Positions 26,756 through 30,683 of a stretch of 64,000 nucleotides of DNA are shown here, one piece after another. The stretch's first letter is position 1. Each line of letters opens with the position of its first letter. The stretch covers positions 62,001 through 126,000 of the forward strand of contig NZ_VDGT01000015.1 in the NCBI RefSeq assembly GCF_006335015.1. The letters are read 5' to 3'. The translations under genes were made by a program, and so were the position numbers. The notes under the pieces were generated by a model, which did no database searches, was not told where the DNA came from, and was given only the letters and a program-made list of their open reading frames with translations. The DNA comes from Streptomyces sedi. GTDB taxonomy: Bacteria; Actinomycetota; Actinomycetes; Streptomycetales; Streptomycetaceae.

Positions 26756-27010
26756 ATGAGAGCCGACACCCACCCCACCTACCGGCCGGTCGTCTTCCGG
26801 GACCGCGCGGCCGGCTACGCCTTCCTCACCCGGTCCACGGCGACCAGTGACCAGACCATCGAGTGGGAGGACGGGAACACCTACCCGGTGGTCGACGTGG
26901 AGACCTCGTCCGCCAGCCACCCCTTCTACACCGGCACCGCCAGGGTGCTGGACACCGCCGGACGCGTGCAGCGCTTCGAGCGGCGTTACGGCCGGCATGG
27001 GGAGCGTTGA
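26756..27010 (+). CDS. rpmE2: Type B 50S ribosomal protein L31 (zinc-free)
   Basis: 84 residues. Matches L31 type [24 protein letters not shown], then [17 protein letters not shown] and a basic end. The CxxC pairs of zinc-binding L31 are absent, so this is the form that replaces zinc L31 on the ribosome when zinc is scarce. AAGGAGAG precedes the ATG; a GTG one codon earlier is possible. The stop overlaps the next start (TGATG), coupling it to the CobW gene. Confidence 0.95.
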
Positions 27011-28191
27011 TGCCCCTTCCCGCCCTTCCCGTCGTACTGGTCGCCGGCTTGCACGCTGAGGCGCGCGGCGCGGCGGTTCGCGCCCTGCTGGGCGCGACGC
27101 CCGGTGCCCTGGCCCTGCACCACGATCTGACGCGGGCCCGCCGTTCCCTGGTCACCCGGGTGATCTCGGACGCGGAGGGCCCGTTGGGCAGCGGCGAGGT
27201 GTCGCTGCCCAACGACTGCGCCTGCTGCGCGCTCGCCGACGACCTCGTCCCCGCGCTGCGCCGGCTCTCCGAGGCCGGCACCTGCCAGCTGGCCGTGGTG
27301 GAGCTGTGGGACTCGGTCGAGCCGCAGGCCATGGCCGAGGCGCTGGTCACCCACGGCGGTGAACGGCTGCGGCTGACCGGGGTGGTCACCGCCGTCGACC
27401 CGGCGCGGGTGCGTTCCAGCCTGACCTCGCCGGACGATCTGGCCGCCGCGCACCTGGCCACCGGCGAGGACGACACCCGCACGGTCGCCGAGACCTGGGC
27501 GCGCCAGGTCGAGTACGCGCCCCTGCTCGCGCTGGGCGCGCCCTCGCGTCGGGTCACCGAGGCCGACCTCGCGCTGCTGCGGCAGTTGCACCCGACCGCC
27601 CGTCGGGTCGACGTACGCGACCCGGCCTTCCCGGCCGCGGCCATCCGCGACCAGGTGCCGGCGGACGGGCGGTCGAGCGTCGACGTGGTGGCGCTGGCCG
27701 CGCGGCAGCACCCGGGCAGCGCGCAACTGCCCCAACTCGCCGAGGAACACGGCGTGCGCACCATGGTCTGGCGCCAGCGCCGGCCGTTCCACCCGGAGCG
27801 GCTGTACGCGGCGCTGCCCCGGCTGACGTCGCTCGCGCCGCGCAGCCGCGGTCGCTTCTGGCTCGCGGACCGGCCGGACTCGCTGCTGGGCTGGGACGCC
27901 GCCGGCGGCTCCCTGGTGGTGGACAACGTTGGTCCCTGGCTGGCGGCGCTCCCCTGGCCGGACTGGGACGAACTCCCCCTGGAATGGCGGATCGCCGCGA
28001 CCCTGGACTGGGACCCCGAGGTGGGGGACCGTGGACAGCACCTGGTCTTCACCGGGCCCGGGCTGCGGGCGGACCGCGTCCGCTGGCTGTTGGGCTCCTG
28101 TCTCCTCAACGACGCGGAGTACGCGGCCGGCAGGTCCGCGTGGCTCCGGCTGGGCTCGGCCTTCGACGAACTGCTCGATCCGGTCTTCTGA
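27010..28191 (+). CDS. CobW/ZNG-family GTPase-like protein with degenerate P-loop
   Basis: 393 residues. The overall pattern is CobW: an N-terminal G-domain with the metal-binding CxCC motif (NDCACCAL, Cys70, 72, 73), an AVVELWDSVEPQAMAE segment, TGVVTAVDP and a C-terminal CobW_C domain with WLADRPDSLLGWDAAGG. Zinc-starvation CobW proteins deliver zinc to client enzymes. The Walker A position reads AGLHAEARGAAV, lacking the GK[ST], so GTP hydrolysis is doubtful. Related Streptomyces proteins next to rpmE2 show the same change, as I recall. Translation is coupled to rpmE2 by TGATG. Confidence 0.88.
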   Translation: MPLPALPVVLVAGLHAEARGAAVRALLGATPGALALHHDLTRARRSLVTRVISDAEGPLGSGEVSLPNDCACCALADDLVPALRRLSEAGTCQLAVVELWDSVEPQAMAEALVTHGGERLRLTGVVTAVDPARVRSSLTSPDDLAAAHLATGEDDTRTVAETWARQVEYAPLLALGAPSRRVTEADLALLRQLHPTARRVDVRDPAFPAAAIRDQVPADGRSSVDVVALAARQHPGSAQLPQLAEEHGVRTMVWRQRRPFHPERLYAALPRLTSLAPRSRGRFWLADRPDSLLGWDAAGGSLVVDNVGPWLAALPWPDWDELPLEWRIAATLDWDPEVGDRGQHLVFTGPGLRADRVRWLLGSCLLNDAEYAAGRSAWLRLGSAFDELLDPVF

Positions 28192-28513: not shown

Positions 28514-28750
28514 ATGCCCAACGCCTACAACGGCATGACGGCCAGCCTGTTGCGGGGGGTGCAGTGGATGAAGAGCAGCCACAGCAACTCGCAGGGAACC
28601 TGCGCCGAGTTCGCGAGGCTGCCCAGCGGGGACGTGGCGGTGCGCAACTCCCGCTTCCCCGAGGGGCCGGCGCTCGTCTACACGCCGGCCGAGATGGAGG
28701 CGCTGCTGCGCGGCGTCAAGGACGGCGAGTTCGACCATCTGATCGGCTGA
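28514..28750 (+). CDS. DUF397 domain protein (BldB/AbaA-associated type)
   Basis: 78 residues. The DUF397 signature is complete: VQWMKSSHSNSQGTCAEFARL, DVAVRNSRFPEGPALVYTPAEM and a C-terminal KDGEFDHL. DUF397 proteins are paired with XRE regulators of the WhiJ type and are thought to modulate them in control of development and antibiotic production. The ATG follows GGGGAGAG. It is one member of the trio with the anti-sigma-like ATPase and the XRE regulator nearby. Confidence 0.92.
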   Translation: MPNAYNGMTASLLRGVQWMKSSHSNSQGTCAEFARLPSGDVAVRNSRFPEGPALVYTPAEMEALLRGVKDGEFDHLIG

Positions 28751-28831
28751 GCCACCGCCGAGCCGGGGTCCTCTCCGCGACGGGTGCCGAACGGAACGCG
28801 GGGCGCGTGGCGGGAAACGCGCGGGAGTTGT

Positions 28832-29001
28832 CTAGGTCGTCTCGTTTGGATCTTCGTGGATCAGGGCGCGGCGTCAGATGCGGTGCATCGCAAGGCGCCG
28901 GATCGCAGCTCATACTTGGCCGTATTCGCGCGATTCGGTAACGCAGCGAGGTGCCGTAGCTGGCGTCGCGCCCCCGCGAAGATCCAAACGAGACGGCCTA
29001 G
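28832..29001. mobile_element. 170-bp palindromic MITE-like element
   Basis: Terminal inverted repeats of 25 bp (28832-28856 and 28977-29001) differ at one position and both end in CTAG. Homology between arms continues inward for about 60 bp (GGGCGCGGCGTCAG against GGGCGCGACGCCAG, and beyond), so nearly the whole element can fold into one hairpin. It is too short to encode a transposase. The right CTAG supplies the TAG stop of the ATPase gene. The ends resemble those of IS5-type elements I recall in Streptomyces, so it is probably mobilised in trans. Confidence 0.75.
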
Positions 29002-29492
29002 CTGTCGGTCAGGAAGATCGCCCACACGATCTTCCCTCGGGCCTTCCCGTGCAGCGGGCGCCATCCCCAGTCATCGCTGAAACTCTCCACCAGATGCAGT
29101 CCACGCCCCGACTCCGCCGCGCTGTCCGCGTGCGCCGGCCTCGGAGCGCGTTCACTCGGGTCGCGCACCGCGCAGACCAACCGCGCGGTGCAGCGGACGA
29201 GTTCCAACTCCAGCCGCGGACGCGCCTGCGCCGGGACCCACTCGGGCGTGCGGGGGGCGACCCCGTGCCGCAGCGCGTTGGTGACCAGTTCGGAGACGAC
29301 GAGGGCGACGCAGTCGAACTGCTCGTCCAGCTGCCAGGAGTGCAGCGTCACCCGGGCGAAGTCCCTTGCCTGCCGCACCGATTCGGGACGCGGTGCCAGC
29401 TCGATCGCCGCCGCGTCCGACACGCTCCGCGGGTCGACGGGCAGCAACGGATGCCCTAAGGCGTCGAGCAAGGGCGTTGCCTCGGTCCCCAT
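28998..29492 (-). CDS. Anti-sigma-factor-like ATP-binding protein (HATPase, SpoIIAB/RsbW type)
   Basis: 164 residues. GHKL ATPase fold: the N-box is VSELVTNALRHG and the G-box region is ESGRGLHLVESFSDDWGW. A variable loop lies between them (VAPRTPEWVPAQARPRLELELV). Such stand-alone domains bind and inhibit sigma factors or act as serine kinases on antagonists; here it belongs to the XRE/DUF397 trio. I start at MGTEATPLL; the upstream frame is not protein-like. Its stop codon TAG lies inside the CTAG end of the MITE-like element. Confidence 0.88.
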   Translation of the reverse strand: MGTEATPLLDALGHPLLPVDPRSVSDAAAIELAPRPESVRQARDFARVTLHSWQLDEQFDCVALVVSELVTNALRHGVAPRTPEWVPAQARPRLELELVRCTARLVCAVRDPSERAPRPAHADSAAESGRGLHLVESFSDDWGWRPLHGKARGKIVWAIFLTDS

Positions 29493-29780: not shown

Positions 29781-30683
29781 ATGAGTATGCAACGGATGGC
29801 GGGGCCGACGAGTAAGCCCAGCAATCCCGAGGCTGGCGGTTCGATGGTGCGCCGCATCCTGCTGGGGTCCCAGCTCAGGCGGCTGCGGGAGTCCTGCGGG
29901 GTCACCAGGGAGCAGGCCGGATACTCGATCCGCGCCTCCGAGTCCAAGATCAGTCGCATGGAGTTGGGCCGGGTCAGCTTCAAGCCCCGCGACGTGGCTG
30001 ACCTGCTGACTCTCTACGGCGTCACCGAGGACGGGGAGCGCGAGCCCCTGCTCTCGCTGGCCCGCACCTCCAACCGCGCGGGCTGGTGGCACAGTTACAG
30101 CGACGTGCTGCCGAGCTGGTTCCAGACCTATGTCGGCCTCGAAGCGGCGGCCGAGCGGATCGGTACCTACGAACTCCAGTTCGTGCATGGTTTGTTGCAG
30201 ACCGAGGCATATTCGCACGCCGTGATGGTCAGCGGTCACCGGGGCGAGCTGCCGCGCGGCGAGGTGGACCGCAGGGTGGCGCTGCGGCTGGGCCGGCAGA
30301 AGCTGCTGGTCTCCGAGAACGCCCCCCACCTGCACTGCGTGCTGGACGAGGCCGCGCTGCGCCGTCCCTACGGCGGGCGCCGGGCGATGGCCGAACAGCT
30401 GGGCGCGCTCCTGGAGTTCAGTGAGTATTCCAACATCACCCTCCAGGTTGTCCCCTTCGATCACGGGGGTCATGTGGCCGAATCTGGCGCGTTCACGCTC
30501 TTGCGCTTCGCCGAGCAGGAGCTGTCGGACCTGATCTATCTGGAGCAGTTGACGGGCGCGCTCTATCTGGACAAGCGGGAGGAGGTCGCCGCCTACCAGG
30601 TGGTCCTCGACCGGCTCGCCGACGCCGCGCTCGACGAGAAGGCCAGCCGCGACCTGCTCGCCGGGCTCCGCGGCCGGCTCTGA
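29781..30683 (+). CDS. XRE-family regulator with DUF5753 domain (WhiJ type)
   Basis: 300 residues. The helix-turn-helix occupies about residues 28-83 (LGSQLRRLRESCGVTREQAG, ASESKISRMELGRV). The rest is DUF5753 (WFQTYVGLEAAAERIGTYELQFVHGLLQTEAY, LHCVLDEAALRRPYGG, ITLQVVPFDHGGH). WhiJ-type proteins repress developmental or secondary-metabolic genes and are modulated by their DUF397 partner. GGAGGG lies 9 nt before the first ATG. It is divergent from the ATPase gene, with the paired palindromes in between. Confidence 0.93.
   Translation: MSMQRMAGPTSKPSNPEAGGSMVRRILLGSQLRRLRESCGVTREQAGYSIRASESKISRMELGRVSFKPRDVADLLTLYGVTEDGEREPLLSLARTSNRAGWWHSYSDVLPSWFQTYVGLEAAAERIGTYELQFVHGLLQTEAYSHAVMVSGHRGELPRGEVDRRVALRLGRQKLLVSENAPHLHCVLDEAALRRPYGGRRAMAEQLGALLEFSEYSNITLQVVPFDHGGHVAESGAFTLLRFAEQELSDLIYLEQLTGALYLDKREEVAAYQVVLDRLADAALDEKASRDLLAGLRGRL

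Follow-up and report, generated by a model that had tools for sequence, protein, structure and literature searches.

The 170-bp palindrome at 28832–29001 of the window, by which we mean the whole 64-kb stretch of Streptomyces sedi DNA analysed here, belongs to a multi-copy family whose members insert at C^TA^G, carry ends in the style of IS5-type insertion sequences (ISs), sit largely on stop codons and covary along their stems with a preference for one strand. We consider it probable that the element is an IS5-family MITE, moved in trans to its targets and seated on stop codons, whose core is selected to fold as one strand. An IS5-type MITE is a known kind of element; the seat on stop codons and the apparent structural selection on one strand set this one apart.

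Anatomy and distribution of the element

With both CTAG edges, the element occupies 28832–29001 (+), and throughout the family the + strand is the one with the favoured single-stranded fold. On the reading that TA is the duplicated target, to which the edge types among 123 copies point, the element proper is 164 bp long (28835–28998, +) and is flanked by putative TA duplications at 28833–28834 and 28999–29000. The left terminal inverted repeat, an IS5-type end, lies at 28835–28859 (+) and the right repeat at 28974–28998 (−), while the conserved core hairpin, described by covariance model R1, spans 28858–28975 (+) and contains near-invariant G-U pairs and invariant unpaired bases. The original prediction of an imperfect palindrome with CTAG ends, 25-bp repeats one base apart and homology continuing inward is borne out: the palindrome is nearly full length, the single difference holds for the outer 25 bases of the arms, the 28-nt arms (28832–28859 and 28974–29001) are 93% complementary, and pairing runs inward almost to the apex. 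RNA folding of both strands agrees with the proposed single hairpin, at −125.1 kcal/mol with 71 pairs for the + strand (z −14.2 against dinucleotide shuffles, none of 200 equalling it) and −96.5 kcal/mol for the − strand (z −9.2). As single-stranded DNA (ssDNA), the + strand folds at −67.5 (z −11.0). For the suggested terminator of both convergent genes, a pattern scan of 28600–29200 shows no stem followed by a T-run, and it shows no sigma-70-like promoter either. Against Rfam the window copy had hits to miRNA families only, far below gathering scores, and seven loci of the element had no gathering-level match to any curated family.

The genome of S. sedi contains 41 matches. Eight are copies of approximately 170 bp at 95–100% identity, the window copy included; among the remainder are two copies of 203 bp, a single 232-bp copy and longer copies that are broken. 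A DNA search that scored the top three candidates per genome found a match in 164 of 246 sampled Streptomyces genomes, and the R1 core model matched 123 of 197 genomes of the order, S. sedi itself being counted in both; five of the 123 lie outside Streptomyces, in two other families. Copy numbers by R1 in seven genomes were 49, 10, 20, 52, 10, 49 and 11, with a maximum of 52. Plasmids also carry the element, with matches in 42 records (40 from Streptomyces and two from Streptantibioticus), and there were no matches in 50,697 phage records.

S. zhaozhouensis (G037), a relative, lacks the element at all five S. sedi insertion sites tested, which there read CTAG in three cases, GTAG in one (in the same gene, whose TAG end is kept) and CTCG in one. 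These copies are therefore young, and the family has moved since the split from this relative. The anticipated abundance of copies and empty sites in relatives were thus both found, and the element is not a single sequence tied to one locus. It is short (170 bp), multi-copy and without a transposase gene, and has terminal inverted repeats, a target-site duplication and empty sites, all of which are characters of a MITE.

Target site and seat on stop codons

Among 123 non-redundant copies, the edges are CTAG..CTAG in 67 and CTAA..TTAG in 14, the remainder being mixed or decayed. The CTAA..TTAG edges place the base next to TA in the element itself and leave TA alone as the duplication, which makes the target C^TA^G. 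CTAG is scarce, with six occurrences in the window, two of them the element's own.

In the window the element occupies the stop of an anti-sigma-like ATPase gene (HATPase_c_2, PF13581; 28998–29588, −). The open reading frame terminates in the right-hand CTAG, as had been predicted, with a TAG codon at 28998–29000 (−) whose third base is the terminal base of the element. Its convergent neighbour, 81 bp upstream of the element, could be assigned to DUF397 (PF04149; 28514–28750, +), so the predicted gene pair stands. The element is missing from all 19 loci of relatives examined for this DUF397-gene pair, and 18 of these loci have a convergent next gene at a distance of 54–327 bp. Further out lie genes for a CobW-type GTPase (27007–28191) and an HTH/DUF5753 regulator (29844–30683); regulator, DUF397 and ATPase genes form a trio that is common in Streptomyces.

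Supply of a stop codon by CTAG is no accident of the window copy but a recurrent trait of the family. Genes were called with a home-made codon-bias finder, which missed some annotated plasmid genes. In our first set, comprising 111 of the 123 non-redundant copies (those left out had short flanks or poor end pairing), TA lies within the stop codon of a flanking gene in 79 copies and one copy is inside a gene; 52 of the 111 lie between convergent genes. The seat was weaker in a second set of 30 of 32 rows, with 15 of the 30 on a stop. After pooling, for which L300 was dropped as the same copy as L060, 94 of 140 copies were on a stop, compared with 14 of the 68 further CTAG sites that these flanks contain (odds ratio 7.9, p 2.1e-10).

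The far flanks indicate what the sites were before insertion. Of 75 copies seated on a single stop, 59 have TAG in the far flank, two have TAA and one has TAC, and in the other 13 the TA there is altered; a far flank of TAG or TAA means that the empty site was a stop already. At occupied stops the third base of the codon is provided by the element, and 14 genes now terminate in a TAA supplied by an element that begins with A. We conclude that insertion was mostly at existing stops, completed by the first base of the element. Because the element begins with a purine (G or A) and ends with its complement, insertion into a stop rebuilds TAG or TAA, so that the full gene product is kept and the seat is a safe one. 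Not every seat was an ancestral stop: at the S. sedi copy L002 (G000:C49:113152-113321) a gene ends on the element's TAG where G037 reads GAG, and the insertion may have followed or caused truncation of the gene.

Relative to the gene on the occupied stop, the element lies one way in 39 and the other way in 36 cases of the first set, with four on both, and in 44 and 46 cases after pooling, again with four on both. Sense to the stop-codon gene was accordingly ruled out as the cause of the strand preference described below; with orientation so even, a role in the mRNA of that gene does not explain it. One copy, L074 (G151:C1:6601385-6601552), has gtcccgga flanking both CTAGs on the outside, perhaps by chance.

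Candidate autonomous partners and proposed exchange of ends

The contigs of GTDB species were scanned for CTAGGNCGTYTCGTTTGGATC, a pattern that let only two positions vary and thereby held one IS end to at most two differences. This gave 54 stretches, of which nine have a partner end 904–905 bp away, five lie at hairpin-core copies and 40 are without IS or MITE assignment. The ends of the nine 904–905 bp ISs differ from the MITE ends at approximately 1–3 of 21 bases; at the scanned end the pattern itself imposes this similarity, but the partner ends are free of the constraint and have 0–3 mismatches in 18. In the IS of Wenjunlia tyrosinilytica both ends match the pattern, one base in 21 off the right end of the MITE. 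The IS of S. griseofuscus has two overlapping frames that encode PF13340, PF01609 and the NCBIfam family transpos_IS5_3 (NF033580), which scored above its cut-off in one such IS.

The proposal that the element is a non-autonomous IS5-type derivative is supported by these very similar ends. A full-length IS with the same ends, which the prediction also called for, was found in part: it occurs in other species, and its ends are very similar but not identical, and not for every subfamily. These DUF4096 transposons of the IS5 family, which come from Streptomyces and Wenjunlia (L310, L320, L325, L337), resemble the element in having CTAG followed by GGCCGTTTCGTTTGGATCA-type ends and in the position of some copies at stop codons. 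They differ in being 904–905 bp long, encoding a transposase and having no core hairpin at their ends. Closer to individual copies, a MITE and a DUF4096 locus in genome G145 have GGGCCTGTCCGGCGGATCTT, the first 20 element bases, in common; the ends of this locus are 1528 bp apart and its frame contains a stop. At two contig ends of S. sedi itself there is an IS terminus, with GTAG or CTAG followed by GGCGTTTCGTTTGGATC and a DUF4096 frame. In genome G198, a search with the ends of one of two subfamilies (AGGGCTGTCCCGTAAT), allowing two mismatches, found no pair spaced as in an IS. In genome G064 (C1:600050-600489, L119), a MITE copy lies directly against the end of an IS5-type IS and apparently shares its CTAG with it.

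The core does not appear to come from the ISs. An nhmmer search for the core hairpin inside 40 DUF4096 loci (stretches of 3 kb or shorter, some with truncated ISs) did not find it; the single hit is a separate decayed element copy that adjoins an IS. The suggestion that the palindrome arose by inverted duplication of one IS end is not upheld by this search. The element is also conserved in an unusual way. MITEs usually have ends better conserved than their interior, whereas here the mean top-residue fraction over paired columns is 0.90 in the core and 0.69 in the ends, and the terminal ~20 bp differ between copies, the two arms changing in step, while the core stays conserved. Two copies in genome G120 have cores identical at 116 of 118 positions but ends identical at 14 of 23 and 14 of 22, and within each copy the arms remain largely complementary. 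Copies from another family of the order likewise have the same core, yet other ends. From these patterns, the variable ends may reflect a turnover that tracks different IS5-type transposases.

Ends and target point to IS5 rather than to REP/BIME elements with RAYT. We therefore favour a non-autonomous IS5-family (DUF4096 + DDE_Tnp_1) element that would be mobilised in trans. The IS5-type transposases would recognise the terminal ~20 bp, insert at C^TA^G and duplicate TA; CTAG is rare, and a fair share of its occurrences are at TAG stop codons. ISs with near-identical ends are on stops in two of nine cases, and a stop is also touched by three ISs whose ends are of another type. Given this lower rate, the high rate of the MITE may reflect selection after insertion, and target choice alone may be insufficient to account for it.

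Probable selection on one strand and rival explanations

Conservation of the arms as pairs, on which the hairpin interpretation depended, is evident across the family. In an alignment of 28 diverse members, 34 of 67 stem pairs have changed on both sides and 97.8% of cells pair; cells with change on both sides number 261, compared with 84 in shuffles. None of 500 shuffles reaches any of five measures of covariation, and slid registers collapse. The alignment has a fold energy of −128.9 kcal/mol for + and −81.4 for −, and the + fold is better in all 73 rows of one set, at least 13 of which duplicate a copy already in it, and in all 32 of another; the independent figure is 100 unique sequences.

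In all 100 unique copies, G-U oppositions outnumber A-C oppositions. Parsimony counts 92 events from Watson-Crick to G-U and 37 to A-C (p 1.4e-6), using a single midpoint-rooted tree of these 100 copies, between which recombination may have occurred. The terminal repeats, with every opposed column used, gave 46 events to G-U and 15 to A-C, and the asymmetry persists over the columns of the minus-strand fold (62 vs 27). It holds for both kinds of starting pair (A-T, 44 vs 21; G-C, 48 vs 16), so that no single mutation bias explains it. Near-invariant G-U pairs occur at columns 49-127 (27 of 28), 53-123 (28 of 28) and 40-136 (25 of 28), and core columns 32, 43, 61, 63, 107, 110, 111 and 120 are invariant and unpaired. 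Covariation with strand-specific G-U pairs is a hallmark of structured RNA, and together with the G-U bias it points to selection on one strand in a single-stranded form. The asymmetry fits RNA and ssDNA alike, which cannot be told apart by it.

Fork direction was scored in seven genomes for 150 of 201 copies, and among these listed matches 59 run with the fork and 91 against it (p 0.011). The imbalance comes from G151 (9 with, 30 against); three genomes have over 30 listed copies, and the other two are balanced (G198, 24/24; G012, 18/19). Eight further genomes gave 25/26 among their 51 listed copies, and all listed matches together gave 84 vs 117 (p 0.024). Replication polarity as a rule of the family was rejected on this evidence, the imbalance being confined to G151.

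The plainest alternative is a selfish MITE whose hairpin is a by-product of long terminal repeats and gene conversion between the arms, neither strand being selected. A MITE needs nothing beyond such ends, a target duplication and this pattern of copies, and both strands fold well. Conversion at the DNA level, however, predicts strand-symmetric mismatches, and conversion between arms should erase a G-U/A-C asymmetry; the 92 vs 37 events, the same direction in 100 of 100 copies, the persistence of pairs 49-127, 53-123 and 40-136 and the eight invariant unpaired columns make this reading distinctly unlikely. Inverted duplication of one IS end would explain why the outer ~20 bp are similar to IS ends, but with the core absent from the 40 DUF4096 loci examined and better conserved than the ends (0.90 vs 0.69) we hold it to be very improbable.

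Two further readings accept a selected structure. A hairpin useful to the host, which protects or terminates the mRNA of the occupied stop and is kept for that reason, is possible though doubtful. It would fit the 94 of 140 copies on stops and the 52 of 111 between convergent genes, and bacterial stem-loops cluster near stop codons with a suggested mRNA role, according to the cited part of PMC1590033. The hairpin has no T-run, however, its even orientation leaves the strand preference unexplained, and the five S. sedi sites that are empty in the relative mark those copies as young. Alternatively, the strand under selection could be ssDNA rather than RNA, exposed as the replication fork passes or in an intermediate of transposition. 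G-T is likewise a better wobble in DNA than A-C, the + strand folds well as ssDNA (z −11.0), and among the matches listed the fork counts for G151 and for the seven pooled genomes are uneven; but G198, G012 and the eight further genomes show no fork bias among the matches listed, and the transposases of the IS5 family, as DDE enzymes, would be expected to work on double-stranded ends. We regard this as unlikely.

We thus return to an IS5-family MITE whose conserved core is probably selected to fold on one strand only. The favoured strand would be transcribed, and its RNA hairpin could aid persistence or mobility, with ssDNA as the alternative. The core looks selected for a one-strand fold, which an ordinary DNA-only mobile element would not need. 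We speculate, with rather less than even confidence, that the mobile element has two parts: a conserved hairpin core selected on one strand as RNA or ssDNA, with a role in trans or in moving the element itself, and exchangeable ends that allow it to ride on any IS5-type transposase at hand, with stop codons as a harmless seat. If so, it would in effect be a mobile non-coding RNA gene of Streptomyces. Bacterial MITEs are mostly seen as DNA parasites with incidental hairpins; family-wide covariation combined with a one-strand wobble preference makes selection on a single-stranded form measurable, and this family makes the role of a bacterial MITE transcript directly testable. Its target habit suggests gene ends as safe harbours, where the stop codon can even change, and since the element is common in Streptomyces, it bears on the 3′ ends of many genes and on how these genes are annotated and engineered.

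ERIC, BOX and Correia-type elements are also structured, multi-copy, intergenic and carried in mRNAs, in different hosts. Their sequences were compared with the element through Rfam only, with no match at gathering score. ERIC and BOX are named in a review of prokaryotic MITEs (PMC10969869), whose main text contains neither 'Streptomyces' nor 'stop codon'. In the open-licence literature, judged by titles and the starts of abstracts, we recognised no description of this family, which may be published elsewhere. The closest described element found, going by the cited part of its report, is MITEPsy1 of Pseudomonas syringae (PMC3189936), which was trapped while moving; it is likewise IS5-like ('IS5?'), with a repeat that starts GG and a CTAG or YTAA target. 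Unlike our element, it is 100 nt long, with 18-nt repeats, a reported 4-nt duplication and a restricted distribution, and the cited part of that report mentions neither selection on a hairpin of full length nor a conserved core or a seat on stop codons. QMITE2 of Coxiella burnetii is similarly predicted to give a stable transcript folded as a hairpin over its full length, mainly in 3′ untranslated regions and a suggested RNase III substrate, as described in the cited parts of PMC5896051 and PMC10969869. It differs in its 7–11 nt duplications, whose sequence varies, and the same parts of these sources report neither IS5 ends nor strand-asymmetric covariation.

Some copies depart from the simple arrangement. 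G198:C1 has pairs of copies within 250 bp of each other (8062289/8062521 and 8238369/8238534), the first pair being of different subfamilies. A mini-element of approximately 65 bp (G000:C11:74273-74340, L087) consists of two ends back to back without the core and forms a small hairpin. Short hairpins of approximately 30–40 bp (TGGGGGCACCTCCCAG..CTGGGGGA) are nested in copies from G000 (L009, L010, L011, L084, L085) and G198 (L222, L225, L231, L232, L233, L236), each substituting a few bases, at up to four positions per copy and at a different position in the second of these two species. The 16-mer CTGGGAGGTGCCCCCA occurs exactly in 28 of 308 loci and lies within copies wherever it was looked at.
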